A DNA stretch of 64,000 nucleotides from the NCBI GenBank assembly GCA_937868765.1, contig CALMNL010000004.1, positions 1,190,749-1,254,748 on the forward strand, written 5' to 3'. The first letter of the stretch is position 1. Each line of letters begins with the position of its first letter. Shown piece after piece: positions 504 through 36,482 of the stretch. Origin of the DNA: an uncultured Desulfatitalea sp. Its GTDB lineage: Bacteria > Desulfobacterota > Desulfobacteria > Desulfobacterales > Desulfosarcinaceae. A program made the position numbers and the translations under genes. Below the pieces are notes generated by a model that saw only the letters and a program-made list of their open reading frames with translations, had not been told where the DNA came from and did not search any database.

Positions 504-520
504 AAGTGTAAGGGGCACGT

Positions 521-1138
521 ATGCCATCGGTTTTAGAAGTCTTCTCCGACTACATCTGACCCTGGTGCTACTTCGTTACCGGGCGTATCGAACGAGCACA
601 GCAGGAGTTGGATCTGACGGTTCGCTGGACGGCCTTTCCGCTGCACCCCGAAACACCGGACGGGGGGCGCAGCCTGGAAGAGCTCTTCGCCGGTCGCGGG
701 GTGGATATTCCCGCGGTCCTGGCCCGCCTGAAAAGCACGGCCGCCGATCTGGGGCTGCCCTTCACCGCGCGATCCATGACCTACAACAGCCGCCGGGCCC
801 AGGAGCTGGGCAAATGGGCCGAGGCCGAAGGCCGGGGCGAGCGCTTCCACCATCTGGTTTTCGAGGCCTACTTCGCCCACGGCCGCAACATCGCCCAGCT
901 GCAGGTGCTGGCCGAGCTGGTCGCGGCCGCGGGCCTGGACCCCGCGGCGGCCCAAAGGGTACTGGACGAGGGCCGCTACCAGGCCGCGGTGGACGCGGAT
1001 TGGCGCCGCAGCCGGGAATTGGGCATCACGGCCGTACCCACCTTTCAAATCCAGGGCCGCCGCCTGGTGGGCGCCCACCCGTACGAGGCCATCCGGGATC
1101 TGGCCCTGCTCGCCGGCGCCGCGGCCAAAAAATCCTGA
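521..1138 (+). CDS. DsbA/FrnE-family thiol oxidoreductase with in-frame UGA (selenocysteine) in the redox motif
   Basis: From ATG 521, preceded by AAGGGG, the frame reads to a stop at 1136-1138 except for one TGA at 557-559. Reading that codon as selenocysteine gives a 205-aa protein beginning MPSVLEVFSDYI-U13-PWC16. FrnE/DsbA-family proteins have F-S-D-x-x-C-P-W-C-Y at this point, so U replaces the first, nucleophilic Cys of the CPWC motif. Homology runs unbroken on both sides: TGRIERAQQ and LTVRWTAFPLHPE follow the TGA, and the cis-Pro segment GITAVPTFQIQGRR lies near residue 175. The length fits the family. The role would be thiol-disulfide exchange. There is no signal peptide, so a cytoplasmic site is expected, as for FrnE-type proteins. 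Starting at the internal TTG 608 would remove the active site and the first beta strand, so a truncated gene is less likely. A simple nonsense mutation cannot be excluded from sequence alone. Confidence 0.85.
557..599 (+). promoter_or_regulatory. UGA recoding site with candidate bacterial SECIS hairpin
   Basis: Downstream of the UGA at 557-559, GTGCU 565-569 pairs with AGCAC 595-599, and CGUU 574-577 pairs with AACG 591-594. CGG 580-582 can continue the stem with UCG 588-590, with A578 and C579 bulged. This leaves an apical loop G-C-G-U-A at 583-587. A G at the first loop position, about 23 nt after the UGA, matches what is known of bacterial SECIS elements bound by SelB. I folded it by eye; no energy was computed. 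Confidence 0.6.
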
Positions 1139-13183: not shown

Positions 13184-13196
13184 AATCATAATGATT
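13184..13196. promoter_or_regulatory. 13-bp inverted repeat, possible operator in the divergent region
   Basis: AATCAT-A-ATGATT is a perfect inverted repeat with one central base. It lies between the acyl-CoA operon and icmF, just before the open frame that leads to icmF, and overlaps a CATAAT sequence downstream of a TTGACG. The binding protein is unknown; the XRE-cupin regulator of the adjacent operon is one candidate. Confidence 0.35.
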
Positions 13197-13281
13197 GAAA
13201 CGCGTGTCCTCTGTAACCGGGTACGGACCCAATGGCACCCGGCAGCGTCCCATCCCGAAGGCCCGATTCAAAGGAGGTCCC

Positions 13282-16200
13282 ATGTCGGTCGCCACCGAAC
13301 GCTACGTCCCCAGTCATCCCATCCGGGTCGTCACCGCCACCGCGCTCTTCGACGGCCACGATGCCGCCATCAACATATACCGCCGGCTGCTGCAGGACGC
13401 CGGCGTCGAGGTGATCCATTTAGGCCACAACCGTTCGGTACGCGATATCGTGGACGCCGCCGTGCAGGAAGACGTCCAGGGGGTGGCGGTCTCCTCCTAC
13501 CAGGGGGGCCACATGGAGTTCTTCAAATACCTGGTGGACCTGCTGCGCCAGTCGGGCGTACCCCATGTCCAGGTGTACGGCGGCGGCGGCGGCGTGATCG
13601 TGCCGGCCGAGGTGCAGGCCCTGGAAGCCTACGGGGTAACCAAGGTCTACACCCCCGAGGACGGCGCCCGGCTTGGGCTCGCGGGCATCGTCGATGATAT
13701 GGTGCGCCGGCTGGATTACCCCCGGGCCGGACGCGCCGAAATAGCCCTGGACAAACTTTCGCCGGACAATCCGCCCCTGGTGGCCAACCTGATCACCACC
13801 CTGGAGCAGAACGGTTCGGACGACCAGTGGGCCGACCTGCGCGCGGCCCTGGGCGCCAAGGCGGCCGGACGCACGGTGCCGGTGGTGGGCATCACCGGTA
13901 CGGGCGGTTCGGGCAAATCCTCGCTCACCGACGAGCTGATCCAGCGGTTGCTGCTGGACCAGGAACAGATCCACGTGGCCGTGCTCAGCGCCGATCCGTC
14001 GCGGCGCAAGAGCGGCGGCGCCCTGCTGGGCGACCGCATCCGTATGAATGCCATCGGCAACCGGCGCGTCTTCATGCGTTCGTTGGCCACCCGTCGGGCC
14101 TCCAGCGAAATCCCGGCCCGCCTGACCGATATCGTGCGCGTGCCCAAGGCCGCCGGTTACGACCTGATCATCGTGGAGACCGCCGGCATCGGCCAGGGGG
14201 ATGCCGGCATCATCGAGCATGTGGATCTTTCCATTTACGTGATGACCAGCGAGTTCGGCGCCGCCTCCCAGCTGGAAAAGATCGACATGCTGGACTTCGC
14301 CGATCTGGTGGTGGTCAACAAGTTCGAAAAACGCGGCGGCGAGGATGCCGTGCGCGATGTGCGCAAACAGGTGCAACGCAACCGCACCGCCTTCGATCGG
14401 CTGCCGGAAGAGATGCCGGTGTTCGGCACCATCGCCGCCAAGTTCAACGACGACGGCGTGACCGCGCTTTACCACGACCTGCTGGACACCATCGCGACCA
14501 AGACCGGCGTGCGCCTCGTTTCGGGGTTGCCCAAGCCGCCGGCACGGACCTCCAGTTCCCAGACCATCATCATTCCCCCGGAGCGCACCCGCTATCTGTC
14601 CGAGATCGCCGAAACCGTACGTGGCTACCATGCCCACACCGAACGCCAATCCGACGCCCTGCGCCGGGTGTGGCATCTGGAGCAGAGCGCCCGGGCGTTG
14701 GGCGCGGGCGCCCCCTCCGGCGGACGCGCGGCCCTGCTGGCCGAACTGAATCACGAAATCGAGAAATCGCGCGAAACGGTGGATCCGGCCTGCCAGCGTT
14801 TGGTGGGGCAGTGGGAGCAGCTCCGCCAGGCCTACACCCAGGACCAGCTGGTCTACACCGTGCGCGACGAAGAGATTCGAACGCCCCTGCACACCGAATC
14901 GCTCGCCGGCCAGAAGATCCCCAAGATCGCCCTGCCGGCCCTGGACGAGCCCGGGGCGCTGCTGCGCTGGCTGCGGCGCGAGCACCTGCCCGGCTACTTC
15001 CCTTACACGGCCGGCGTCTTTCCTCTCAAACGCACCGGTGAAGACCCCACGCGCATGTTCGCCGGCGAAGGCGACCCGGCACGCACCAACCGCCGTTTCA
15101 AAATGCTTTCGGCCGACAGCCCGGCCAAGCGGCTCTCCACCGCCTTCGACTCGGTGACCCTCTACGGCTTCGATCCGGACCGGCGGCCGGATATCTTCGG
15201 CAAGATCGGCAACGCCGGCGTGAGCATCTGCACCCTGGACGACGTGAAGACCCTGTACGACGGCTTCGACCTGTGCAGCCCCAACACCTCGGTCTCCATG
15301 ACCATCAACGGCCCGGCGCCCATCATGCTGGCCATGTTCCTCAATGCGGCCATCGACCAGCAGCTGGACCGCTTCCGGGCCGAACAGGGACGCGACCCGG
15401 ATCCCGGCGAAGCGGCGGCCCTGCGGGCCCAGACCCTCTCCACGGTACGCGGCACGGTGCAAGCCGACATCCTGAAAGAGGATCAGGGCCAGAACACCTG
15501 CATTTTCTCCATCGACTTCGCCCTCAAGATGATGGGCGACATCCAGGAGTATTTCGTCGAACACAGGGTGCGCAATTTCTACAGCGTGTCGATCTCCGGC
15601 TACCACATCGCCGAGGCCGGCGCCAACCCCATCTCCCAGCTGGCCTTCACCCTGGCCAACGGCTTCACCTACCTGGAGTACTACCTCTCCCGGGGCATGC
15701 CCATCGACAGCTTCGGTCCCAACCTGTCATTCTTCTTTTCCAACGGCATGGACCCGGAGTACACCGTCATCGGCCGCGTGGCGCGGCGCATCTGGGCCAT
15801 CGCCCTGCGCGGTCGCTACGGCGCCGGCGCGCGCTCCCAGATGCTCAAGTACCACATCCAGACCTCGGGACGCTCTCTGCACAGCCAGGACATCCAATTC
15901 AACGACATCCGCACCACCCTGCAGGCCCTGTGCGCCATCTACGACAACTGCCAGAGCCTGCACACCAACGCCTTCGACGAGGCCATCACCACCCCCACCG
16001 AGGAGTCGGTGCGCCGGGCCCTGGCCATCCAGCTGATCATCAACCGGGAGTGGGGCCTGGCCAAAAACGAGAACCCGCTGCAAGGCAGCTTCATCGTGGA
16101 CCAGCTCACCGACCTGGTGGAAGAGGCCGTGCTGGCCGAGTTCGACCGCATCAGCAGCCGCGGCGGGGTGCTGGGGGCCATGGAGACCGGCTACCAGCGC

Positions 16201-16560
16201 AGCCGCATCCAGGAGGAGTCCATCCACTACGAGACCCTCAAGCACACCGGCGAACTGCCCATCATCGGCGTCAATACGTTCCGCGACCCCAACGCCTCCC
16301 AGGAGCGCCTGGCCGACAATTTCAGCATCGAACTGGCCCGCTCGACCCCCCAGGAGAAGGAGTCCCAGCTCGCGCGCCTGGCCGCCTTCCACCAGCGCAA
16401 CGCCCGCGCCGCTCCCCAGGCCCTGCGGCGCCTGCAGCAGACCGCGCTTTCCGGCGGCAATATCTTCGAAACCCTGATGGAGACCGTACGGTCGTGCAGC
16501 CTGGGCCAGATCACCCAGGCCCTGTACGCCGTGGGCGGGCAATACCGGCGCAACATGTGA
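13282..16560 (+). CDS. icmF: Fused isobutyryl-CoA mutase IcmF (B12-dependent, with G-protein chaperone domain)
   Basis: 1092 aa from ATG 13282, preceded by AAAGGAGGT. Domains in order: cobalamin-binding domain about 12-140 with DGHDAAINIYRR near 24, the B12-coordinating DxH; MeaB-like GTPase with P-loop GTGGSGKSS near 206-214; linker; and a TIM-barrel mutase domain from about 560. This order is that of IcmF rather than methylmalonyl-CoA mutase. Two residues that separate the enzymes support it: F593 (RMFAGEG, where methylmalonyl-CoA mutases have RQYAG) and Q737 (QGQNTC, where they have the carboxylate-binding Arg). IcmF interconverts isobutyryl-CoA and n-butyryl-CoA by a radical mechanism with adenosylcobalamin; some members also act on isovaleryl/pivalyl-CoA. 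The gene is divergent from an acyl-CoA degradation operon, which fits entry of valine- or leucine-derived acyl-CoA into beta-oxidation. Confidence 0.93.
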   Translation: MSVATERYVPSHPIRVVTATALFDGHDAAINIYRRLLQDAGVEVIHLGHNRSVRDIVDAAVQEDVQGVAVSSYQGGHMEFFKYLVDLLRQSGVPHVQVYGGGGGVIVPAEVQALEAYGVTKVYTPEDGARLGLAGIVDDMVRRLDYPRAGRAEIALDKLSPDNPPLVANLITTLEQNGSDDQWADLRAALGAKAAGRTVPVVGITGTGGSGKSSLTDELIQRLLLDQEQIHVAVLSADPSRRKSGGALLGDRIRMNAIGNRRVFMRSLATRRASSEIPARLTDIVRVPKAAGYDLIIVETAGIGQGDAGIIEHVDLSIYVMTSEFGAASQLEKIDMLDFADLVVVNKFEKRGGEDAVRDVRKQVQRNRTAFDRLPEEMPVFGTIAAKFNDDGVTALYHDLLDTIATKTGVRLVSGLPKPPARTSSSQTIIIPPERTRYLSEIAETVRGYHAHTERQSDALRRVWHLEQSARALGAGAPSGGRAALLAELNHEIEKSRETVDPACQRLVGQWEQLRQAYTQDQLVYTVRDEEIRTPLHTESLAGQKIPKIALPALDEPGALLRWLRREHLPGYFPYTAGVFPLKRTGEDPTRMFAGEGDPARTNRRFKMLSADSPAKRLSTAFDSVTLYGFDPDRRPDIFGKIGNAGVSICTLDDVKTLYDGFDLCSPNTSVSMTINGPAPIMLAMFLNAAIDQQLDRFRAEQGRDPDPGEAAALRAQTLSTVRGTVQADILKEDQGQNTCIFSIDFALKMMGDIQEYFVEHRVRNFYSVSISGYHIAEAGANPISQLAFTLANGFTYLEYYLSRGMPIDSFGPNLSFFFSNGMDPEYTVIGRVARRIWAIALRGRYGAGARSQMLKYHIQTSGRSLHSQDIQFNDIRTTLQALCAIYDNCQSLHTNAFDEAITTPTEESVRRALAIQLIINREWGLAKNENPLQGSFIVDQLTDLVEEAVLAEFDRISSRGGVLGAMETGYQRSRIQEESIHYETLKHTGELPIIGVNTFRDPNASQERLADNFSIELARSTPQEKESQLARLAAFHQRNARAAPQALRRLQQTALSGGNIFETLMETVRSCSLGQITQALYAVGGQYRRNM

Positions 16561-28643: not shown

Positions 28644-30641
28644 TTACTTGCCGCCGAAGCGGGCGCTCACCCCGGCCAGCAGGTTGAATTCGGGGGAGGG
28701 GTAGTAGCCCGGTTCGCCGGCGTAGTTCAACCCGCCGTAGGAAGCATAGCTCGTGTCGAAAACATTGTTCAGGTTGGCGAAGATGGTCAGCCAGCGCCAG
28801 TCGTATTTGATCTTGGCGTTGACCAGGGTGTAGTCCTCCTGCTTGTCGGCGACGTTGTTGAAATCACTGACCAGGTAACGCGTGCCGGTGTAGATGGCTT
28901 CACACCCCAGGAACAACCCCATGTCGAAAGCATAGCCCAAATGGGCCGTGGCCTTGTTCGCGGGCACGTCGGGAATGGTACTGCCGTCGAATTGACCGTC
29001 TTCGATCCTGGCCCTGGTGTGAGTGTAGCCCGCGCCGGCCGACCAGCCGTTATGCAGGTAATTCAAGTTGATCTCCACCCCCTGCCGCAACGTATCGCCG
29101 TCCAGGTTCTCGTTGGTGAAGGCGACCGGGTTGTAGAATATCTCGTCTTCGGTCTGGATGCGGAACATGTTGAAGGCGAAGGTCAAGCCCTCGACGATGT
29201 CGAACTGGGTGCCCGCCTCCAGGTCATGGGAGGATTGCGGCCTCAAATCCGTGTTCGGGTGGTTGGTGAAAAAGTCGAACATCTCGTCGAACAGCGGGTA
29301 GCGGAAGCTCTTGCCGTAGTTCAGATACACCTTGGCGCGGCCGATGGCGTAATTGATGCCCCCGGTGGCGGCCTCCTCGTCCAGGCGGGGCTTTTCCGGC
29401 GTGTCGAAATCGAACCAGGCCCGCTCGTGGCGGTAGCCGCCCGAAAGGGTCAGATGGCGGCTCACCCCCAGATCGTCATGGACATAATAGCCCAAATTCT
29501 TCTTCTCGAAGCTGAACCCCCCCACCGTCAGGTCGCCGAAGAACATGGAGGTGTTGGTAATGTCCTCTTCCGTCCGGCCGAAATCCGCGCCGAAGATGAT
29601 GCGGTTGGAGACTTCGCCGAAACGCTCCTGGAAGGTCAGGCGGGGCGAGGCGGAAAGTGTTTCGATGCCAGTACTGCCGGTGAACCAGCCCTCGCTGAAG
29701 GACGCATATTGATCGACATCCCGGTTGCGATATCCCAGATCGAGCCGGAAGGCGTCGTCGGTCAGGAAGAAGAGCTCGAGGCCGGCCTTGCCGTAGAAAT
29801 CTTCGGTGTCCGCATAATCGTCGGGATGGAAGGTGTCGGTGCGGTCGGCGCCGGCCGCGAAGTCGCTTTCCAGGATCGCCCCGGGCAGGCGGGTGTCGTC
29901 CTGGTGGTACCCGCCGCTGAAGTTGAGGCTGAGCCGGTCGCTGGGATCGAGCTTGACCGTGCCGCCGGCATTCTTGGCCCGGGTCGCGCTGTTGTCCCGA
30001 TAGCCGTCGGAATCCAGGTAGTCGGCCGTGAAGTCGAAGGAGGCCATTCCCGCGCTGCCCTCCACCCCGGCCGAGCCGCTGTAGGTATCATAGCTGCCGT
30101 AGGCGCCGGTCAGGCGGCCCTCCAGCCCACGGCCCTCCTTGGTGATGATGTTGATTACGCCGCCGGTGGCATTGTCGCCGTACATCACGGCGCCCCGGGT
30201 GCCGGGCAGTACCTCGATGCGCTCGATGCGGTCCAGGGGGATCAGGGTCCAGTCGACGCCGCTCAGGTCGGCCTGGTTGATGCGCCGGCCGTCCACCATC
30301 ATCAGTAGATTGGCCGGCGCGCTTTCGCCGAAACCCCTCAGGTCCACCGTGTAGCTGCGCTGGTTGCCGGCGATATCGCTTACGTGCAGGCCGGCCTCGG
30401 CCATCAGCTCGGCCACGTTCTTGGCATTGGAACGCTGGATCGCCCGGGCATCGATCACCGTTACATTCGCCGGCACCTGGGTCACATCCTCCTTTTCGCG
30501 GCTGGCGGTCACCACCACTTCGCCCATCACGGGCGCCGCATCGGCCCCCACTGCCTTCTCTTCAGCCATCACCGGCGCGGCCCACATACAGGCCAGCACC
30601 ATCACCCCCACGACAACAACGTCCACGCCCATCCGATGCAT
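28644..30641 (-). CDS. btuB: TonB-dependent outer-membrane receptor, BtuB-type (cobalamin)
   Basis: 665 aa from ATG 30641 with GGAGGAG upstream. Signal peptide to about residue 26; the TonB box is near GEVVVTASR (40-48). The plug domain has VTQVPANVTVIDARAIQRSNAKNVAELM and NLLMMVDGRRINQADLSGVDWTLIPLDRIERIEVLPGTRGAVMYGDNATGGVINIITKEG. A 22-strand barrel follows, ending LLAGVSARFGGK. Family membership is certain. The substrate assignment rests on the cobalamin riboswitch directly upstream and the btuFCD genes beyond it. The gene heads the btuB-exbB-exbD-tonB transcript. Confidence 0.92.
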   Translation of the reverse strand: MHRMGVDVVVVGVMVLACMWAAPVMAEEKAVGADAAPVMGEVVVTASREKEDVTQVPANVTVIDARAIQRSNAKNVAELMAEAGLHVSDIAGNQRSYTVDLRGFGESAPANLLMMVDGRRINQADLSGVDWTLIPLDRIERIEVLPGTRGAVMYGDNATGGVINIITKEGRGLEGRLTGAYGSYDTYSGSAGVEGSAGMASFDFTADYLDSDGYRDNSATRAKNAGGTVKLDPSDRLSLNFSGGYHQDDTRLPGAILESDFAAGADRTDTFHPDDYADTEDFYGKAGLELFFLTDDAFRLDLGYRNRDVDQYASFSEGWFTGSTGIETLSASPRLTFQERFGEVSNRIIFGADFGRTEEDITNTSMFFGDLTVGGFSFEKKNLGYYVHDDLGVSRHLTLSGGYRHERAWFDFDTPEKPRLDEEAATGGINYAIGRAKVYLNYGKSFRYPLFDEMFDFFTNHPNTDLRPQSSHDLEAGTQFDIVEGLTFAFNMFRIQTEDEIFYNPVAFTNENLDGDTLRQGVEINLNYLHNGWSAGAGYTHTRARIEDGQFDGSTIPDVPANKATAHLGYAFDMGLFLGCEAIYTGTRYLVSDFNNVADKQEDYTLVNAKIKYDWRWLTIFANLNNVFDTSYASYGGLNYAGEPGYYPSPEFNLLAGVSARFGGK

Positions 30642-30742: not shown

Positions 30743-30827
30743 GTCCCTTTTTATCCGCTCGATCTTTTTTGCCGACTTGGAACGTACAATGTGTGTCCAC
30801 GCCATTGCACACGGCTTGCGTTGTTCC

Positions 30828-30997
30828 GGCAGGTCTTCTGACTTCCCCGCCCCATGCGCGGCCTTCCCGTCCGAAACGGACAGTGGCGCACTGGGCGCAT
30901 GAGGTTCCCGGCACACGATCGGCCGGGCGGGGTCACAGCGGCGGGCCCGTCCCCGAATTTCACGGGGTTCCCTTTTCAGCTTCCGGCGAAGCACCTG
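30828..30997 (-). ncRNA. Cobalamin riboswitch aptamer upstream of btuB
   Basis: On the minus strand the conserved elements appear in order: the AGGTGC-type P1 side, GAAAAGGGAACCC, GACGGGCCCGCCGCTGTGACC, the B12 box GCCACTG (plus 30881-30887), CGGGAAGG, and GAAGACCTGCC closing P1. This set is diagnostic for the AdoCbl-type aptamer. With the downstream terminator it forms a transcriptional off-switch for btuB-exbBD-tonB. Confidence 0.95.
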
Positions 30998-31040
30998 AAC
31001 AAATATATGCCCTGGCCCTAACCCATTTGCAGCGGCCGTG

Positions 31041-36017: not shown

Positions 36018-36482
36018 ATGGGAGAAATCATCCATCGATCGGAAATCGTCATCACCCGGGAAAAAGGCCCGACCCGCAAAGCGCTCATCAAGGGCTTCGC
36101 CGAGCCGGTCTATTACGGCGTCCACGGCGGCATCAAGGGATTCTACAAGGTCGAGCCCGACAAGGAGCACGCGGCCACCCTGGACCACCTGGTGGGCGCC
36201 GTGGGCGGCTGAATGATGGGCACCTTCGCCACTGTGCTGGCGAAAAGCAAAATCCCCACGCCGCAAGAGCGCTACCGCGCCGATGTGGCCGGCGACATCG
36301 AAAATGTCAATGGCGTGCTCAAGATCACCCGCATCCAGGTGCGGTATACCCTGAAACTCAAGCCGGAGCAGCGCCCGGCGGCCGAAGCGGCCTTCGCCGT
36401 CTATCTGCCCCATTGCCCGGCCGCCCAGAGCGTGACGGGGGCCATTGAGCTGGCGCATCATCTGGAGATGCAGGATCTATAA
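36018..36482 (+). CDS. OsmC-like protein with in-frame UGA (selenocysteine) at the peroxidatic Cys position
   Basis: Two adjacent open frames (36018-36212 and 36213-36482) join in the same frame across one TGA at 36210-36212. Reading it as Sec gives a 154-aa protein of OsmC length. The Sec lies at residue 65 in LDHLVGAVGG-U-MMGTFATVL, exactly where OsmC/Ohr proteins carry their first catalytic Cys (LLAALGSC...T). The second conserved Cys is C133 in LPHCPAAQS. Downstream GDIENVNGVLKITRIQVRYTLKL fits OsmC strands. OsmC proteins reduce organic hydroperoxides with paired thiols. A Sec-containing version should be a better peroxidase. GAAGGAGG lies just upstream of ATG 36018. A plain nonsense mutation or two separate genes would not preserve homology on both sides. 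Confidence 0.85.
36210..36244 (+). promoter_or_regulatory. UGA recoding site with candidate bacterial SECIS hairpin
   Basis: After the UGA at 36210-36212, UUCGCCA (36225-36231) pairs perfectly with UGGCGAA (36238-36244), leaving a loop C-U-G-U-G-C at 36232-36237. The loop begins about 20 nt after the UGA, within the range for bacterial SECIS. The loop G is third, or second if C36232 pairs with G36236, so the fit to the G-in-first-two rule depends on the fold. Confidence 0.6.

Follow-up and report, generated by a model that had tools for sequence, protein, structure and literature searches.

The closest described systems are DsbA-like selenoproteins with a UXXC motif. As far as the available parts of the sources go, nine such sequences, assigned to COG2761, were described in 2005 from the Sargasso Sea (PMC1088965), and a deltaproteobacterial DsbA-like UXXC selenoprotein followed in 2006 (PMC1794560), with reports from Desulfovibrio desulfuricans and Anaeromyxobacter dehalogenans. 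In the parts available of two later reviews, the DsbA-like UxxC protein is listed under pfam01323 in 2022 (PMC9312934) and as DsbA-like 'form 1' (PF01323, UxxC) in 2026 (PMC13188914). A related protein with cysteine is FrnE (DR_0659) of Deinococcus radiodurans (PDB 5cnw/5cp1), a proposed cytoplasmic disulfide reductase. According to the part of the source available, FrnE proteins are predicted cytoplasmic thiol oxidoreductases with a CP(W/F)C motif in Deinococcus, and FrnE of D. radiodurans carries a C-terminal CxxxxC motif, which some FrnE proteins lack (PMC8945050). Literature on FrnE and selenocysteine, judged from its listing, contained no apparent bacterial FrnE selenoprotein; literature joining selenoprotein, FrnE and DsbA consisted, in the entries available, of an animal selenoprotein database only, and none was found that joins DsbA, selenocysteine and Desulfobacteraceae. 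COG2761 is a family that we take to be FrnE.

The gene considered here is located at one end of the window, a stretch of 64,000 nucleotides from an uncultured Desulfatitalea sp., and the copy of the gene in the assembled genome (C4:1191269-1191883) contains one internal TGA. It belongs to the DsbA-like UxxC kind known since 2005 and is itself an added member. The likeness to the Sargasso Sea proteins comprises the PF01323 domain, the UxxC motif and an in-frame UGA with a bacterial SECIS element directly 3' of it; the 2005 sequences were compared by their description in the available part of the source, which does not imply membership in the exact UPWCY clade discussed below. The coordinates are given in Table 1.

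Table 1. Features of the FrnE/DsbA-like gene, almost certainly encoding a selenoprotein, with their positions in the window
Feature	Position	Strand	Basis and remarks
Probable ribosome binding site AGGGG, 5 nt 5' of ATG 521	511..515	+	Read from the sequence
FrnE/DsbA-like selenoprotein gene	521..1138	+	Translation; 205 aa plus stop TGA 1136-1138
UGA codon, predicted Sec13, residue 1 of the UPWC motif	557..559	+	TGA in 129/129 position-checked top loci; Cys in FrnE
Bacterial SECIS hairpin, loop C580-G-G-G-C584, 20 nt from UGA	561..605	+	Fold
TGC, Cys16, sole true cysteine, expected resolving partner of Sec13	566..568	+	Sequence, list of cysteines
Conserved SECIS core stem	573-575/589-591 and 577-579/585-587	+	Comparative
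Pro173 (GITAVP), expected cis-proline opposite the thioredoxin-fold active site	1037..1039	+	Aligned with FrnE GITGVP

Translation of the frame from ATG 521 revealed the single internal TGA (557-559) claimed in the earlier note, besides the terminal TGA, and an N-terminal reading of MPSVLEVFSDYI-TGA-PWCYFVTG. The note's further claim that naive annotation would start at TTG 608 and yield 176 residues without the active site was borne out exactly, mechanical calling having returned the frame TTG 608..1138 (176 aa). Thus, a gene caller that takes TGA as a stop trims the gene to 176 aa and removes its active site, and the genes of the relatives would be trimmed likewise under the same logic. The read-through protein matches the PF01323 DSBA domain over residues 5-193 (E 3.2e-36) and the structures of D. 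radiodurans FrnE, its best relative with a solved structure, over residues 5-186 (E 1.8e-20), which substantiates both the FrnE/DsbA-like identity and the homology on either side of the TGA that had been claimed; no NCBIfam model scored above its cut-off. The first Cys of the FrnE CPWC motif aligns opposite the TGA, and the combination of a PF01323 domain with a UxxC motif is that of DsbA-like selenoprotein form 1.

The mechanical call of 608..1138 would fit a reading of the TGA as a true stop, either in a pseudogene or with a restart at TTG 608 that leaves a 176-aa protein without active site. Against this reading stand the homology on both sides, the conservation of the codons before and after the TGA, and the distribution of the TGA itself. 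A scan of contigs for relatives retrieved 203 loci encoding one, and the equivalent codon was TGA in 80/80 loci when the best 80 of these 203 were taken. One of the six search patterns demanded Cys at the site and none demanded TGA, so that the scan was without bias towards TGA. With loci from a genome search added, TGA occupied the site in all 129 position-checked loci (L018-L146; 103 distinct proteins), these being the highest-scoring matches, with the copy of the window included. Twenty further regions, hand-chosen so as to cover remoter matches or ones lacking a stop, contained TGA at the site in ten cases and TGC or TGT in the other ten. Hence, Cys homologues align across the TGA, namely FrnE and half of the hand-chosen regions, and the window gene has an in-frame UGA where these homologues have Cys. 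Among 60 genomes, the own genome included, 32 contained a match; by hand count, these represented 28 TGA forms, two stop-free forms (G026 and the distant G055) and two weak partial matches.

The same distribution bears on a sequencing or assembly error with TGC or TGT as the true codon. FrnE has Cys at this position and a one-base change would suffice, but the same TGA is present in assemblies filed under many different organism names, among which Desulfosarcina widdelii PP31 (L037), whose record is titled a complete genome. The TGA is thus not private to the window, and its recurrence across the loci makes an error very unlikely, with a probability close to nil.

A second line of evidence concerns the RNA downstream of the TGA. 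Bacterial SECIS elements are described, in the part of the source available, by a loop of 3-9 nt with a G in loop positions 1-2, an upper stem of 4-16 bp, a spacing of 16-37 nt from the UGA and an MFE of at most -7.5 (PMC13188914). The window hairpin agrees with these rules, with a CGGGC loop of 5 nt that has G second, a spacing of 20 and an energy of -17.6 kcal/mol. The earlier note had postulated a SECIS hairpin after the TGA; its position was right, and folding recovered it at 561-605, whereas the energy by itself is modestly unusual (z -2.33; 4/200 shuffles as good; 4.3% of 5000 synonymous recodings folding as well) and hence weak evidence. An outer stem pairing 561-569 with 595-599 and 602-605 is without conservation in the relatives and was not counted. 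A scan of the window with Rfam at gathering scores returned a cobalamin riboswitch only, and loose thresholds on positions 500-1140 gave matches at chance level only, below gathering scores.

The support for the hairpin comes from synonymous-site constraint and covariation in the relatives. The comparative set comprised 109 segments, i.e. 113 unique Sec-form segments of 105 nt minus four non-UPWCY ones, and six of the 109 stem from the hand-chosen regions. The 6-bp core and the loop G were kept in 101/109 unique segments versus 0.9 expected under synonymous recoding, a count that overstates the evidence, as the segments share kinship and supplied the core stem itself. When the 3' side was slid by 1, 2 or 3 bases, the six pairs held in 0/109 segments at each shift, and RNAalifold on the 109 segments returned the 6-bp core only. 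Codon choice after the UGA was strongly skewed compared with pooled codon usage at Phe+15 (TTC 99% versus 44%), Gly+24 (GGG 90% versus 26%), Arg+27 (CGT 95% versus 10%) and Ile+30 (ATT 86% versus 25%), amounting to 1.11 to 2.86 bits, whereas the skew of the codons measured outside +15 to +35 was at most 0.49 bits, with Pro+3 on top. Two of the six stem-region codons, Thr+21 (0.47 bits) and Glu+33 (0.39 bits), did not exceed Pro+3. In addition, both sides of three core pairs change with pairing kept, namely 18-32 (A-U in 89, G-C in nine and U-A in six of 109), 20-30 (U-A in 89 and C-G in 17 of 109) and 21-29 (A-U in 103 and G-C in three of 109), these changes being counted among related sequences and not as independent events. 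One direct double change concerns pair 18-32, which is G-C in the window versus A-U in the near relatives L019 and L020. Judged from these alignments, the hairpin is constrained at the RNA level and conserved far beyond chance. A pseudogene would not maintain an RNA stem through compensatory change, which, together with the recurrence of the TGA in the position-checked loci, leaves the true-stop reading with a very low probability.

The hand-chosen regions point in the same direction. All six core pairs were present in nine of the ten TGA regions (L170 having five of six) and in none of the ten Cys regions, which retained one to five pairs; the near Cys form L151 has a CAAAC loop. A G in loop positions 1-2 was also found in seven of the ten Cys regions and is therefore not special to Sec forms. 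The lowest-energy fold was another structure in five of the ten hand-chosen TGA regions (L152, L166, L167, L168 and L170), and of the 85 unique segments that 97 loci, with one strand read, supplied to an automated bSECIS-style rule, 61 passed. The UPWCY alignment shows the SECIS core directly, with a loop that is as a rule CGG or CGU, 20 nt past the UGA, and with compensatory changes in the stem.

Thirdly, the genome that contains the window (5.36 Mb, rated 100% complete) encodes the machinery for Sec incorporation. Matches above cut-off were obtained for selA (614.5 bits), selB (360.6 bits), selD (386.1 bits) and a tRNA-Sec with anticodon TCA (72.4 bits), so that SelA, SelB, SelD and tRNA-Sec are all encoded; among 14 control genomes, tRNA-Sec scored above cut-off in five, selB in two, selA in one and selD in two. 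The selD gene itself contains one in-frame TGA, in the context KGAG-U-ASKLAPGDL, of which the GAG-U-ASKL stretch is presumably the SelD active site. Hence, the production of SelD probably requires that UGA be decoded as Sec in this genome. Across the relatives, selA was present in 28/28 genomes with the TGA form and in 57/60 overall (own genome included). Likewise, among the matches listed with at least 90 bits, a hand count in which the position of the TGA was checked for part of the rows gave selA in 62/63 TGA-form genomes versus 11/14 stop-free ones. Since selA occurs nearly everywhere (57/60, and 355/395 genomes), its co-occurrence with the TGA form is weak evidence. One of the 14 stop-free genomes, G195, has a separate N-terminal piece with a TGA and may represent a broken TGA form. 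The Cys-form genome G026, in which selA was not found, was considered as a natural experiment and dropped: it has a full selB, a tRNA-Sec over the cut-off and a TGA-containing OsmC gene, and as the assembly is rated 86% complete, the absence of selA probably reflects an assembly gap.

The machinery also bears on a read-through of the UGA without Sec, for instance through near-cognate suppression by tRNA-Trp or tRNA-Cys. What could speak for it is genome G254 (rated 100% complete, 240 contigs), which has a position-checked TGA form (L152, G254:C37) with the six core pairs and a CGGGC loop, and in which selA was not found and neither selB (best 189.7 versus 242.25 bits) nor tRNA-Sec (best 45.8 versus 47 bits) exceeded the cut-off. 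The simplest reading of this case is a putative stray contig, binning error or assembly gap in an assembly of 240 contigs, and with all Sec genes in the own genome and a hairpin under selection, read-through without Sec is barely credible.

Taken together, window positions 521-1138 almost certainly represent a genuine selenoprotein gene. Because of the frame, the homology, the conservation of the TGA, the machinery genes and the RNA-level constraint, Sec insertion at UGA 557 is very likely. Translation would begin at ATG 521 and reach UGA 557, at which SelB-GTP with Sec-tRNA-Sec would bind the hairpin just downstream, probably contacting the loop G's 581-583, and Sec would be inserted to give Sec13-Pro-Trp-Cys16.

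A tree built from 123 proteins, of which 113 have Sec and 10 have Cys, placed the Cys rows L151, L153 and L154 among the Sec rows of the UPWCY clade. This suggests Sec-to-Cys changes, in a part of the tree with some open forks, long Cys branches and bootstrap values that are not settled, and the clade thus offers candidate changes of this type for study. A further reading is that the UPWCY clade represents a Desulfobacterota enzyme with Sec as a rule, catalysing a redox step that is specific to these anaerobes, which we consider rather unlikely; the example of cytoplasmic reduction of persulfides, polysulfides or selenenylsulfides as this step is a doubtful one too. If Sec were the rule, the Cys forms nested in the clade would be later reversions. 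A second FrnE-like subfamily of this fold (L162-L165) likewise has TGA at the corresponding codon and the six core stem pairs complete, but has UPFC or UPYC instead of UPWC and is 30-37% identical to the window protein.

The 205-aa product of the FrnE-type DsbA fold is probably cytoplasmic, as no leader was seen by eye. It is most likely a thiol-disulfide oxidoreductase. It shares with D. radiodurans FrnE the DsbA fold and the position of the CPWC motif, and differs in having Sec instead of Cys there and in the absence of the C-terminal CxxxxC, Sec13 and Cys16 being its only Sec or Cys residues (the listed position 206 is the real stop). The GITAVP site would provide Pro173 in the cis-proline role that we assume for it. 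The protein perhaps works as a reductase, in which the selenolate of Sec13 would attack the substrate disulfide and Cys16 would resolve the mixed selenenylsulfide. By analogy with FrnE, it may be expected to exchange disulfides or selenenylsulfides with a partner in the cytoplasm. The gene is flanked upstream by an acyl-CoA dehydrogenase gene, cut by the window edge with the last 148 aa present, and downstream by a gene for a YdjM-like membrane protein. Each of these occurred near the gene in only 2/80 relative loci (flanks of at most 2 kb), indicating no conserved partner and hence no functional clue, and a PADLOC scan gave no match.

Elsewhere in the window, an OsmC-like gene (PF02566, E 9.9e-10; 36018-36482, + strand) contains a TGA (36210-36212) at AVGG-U-MMGTF and is likely a second selenoprotein gene. 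Described OsmC-like selenoproteins have a UXXT motif, according to the part of the source available (PMC1088965); the window protein does not show this motif. One internal TGA was found in 18/18 matching genomes (of 60, own genome included), at the same codon in 15/15 fetched loci (own included). Bases 17 and 32 after the TGA were, by eye, C-G in ten and G-C in five of these loci, perhaps through a single event; the energy of the OsmC-like hairpin by itself is ordinary (z -0.50). On contig C6 of G054, a FrnE-like TGA gene (13268-13840, + strand) and an OsmC-like TGA gene (14368-14826, - strand) lie approximately 530 bases apart on opposite strands, versus approximately 35 kb apart in the window. 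A codon-usage scan of the window for further in-frame TGAs retrieved 36210 only and missed 557, and is hence insensitive.

Two other features of the window concern cobalamin. The riboswitch (30811-31013, - strand; 100 bits) is located upstream of a gene for a TonB-dependent receptor (28644-30641, - strand), which is an ordinary arrangement. Furthermore, one frame of 1121 aa (13195-16560, + strand) combines B12-binding, MeaB-like GTPase and methylmalonyl-CoA mutase domains, and resembles the fused mutase IcmF.
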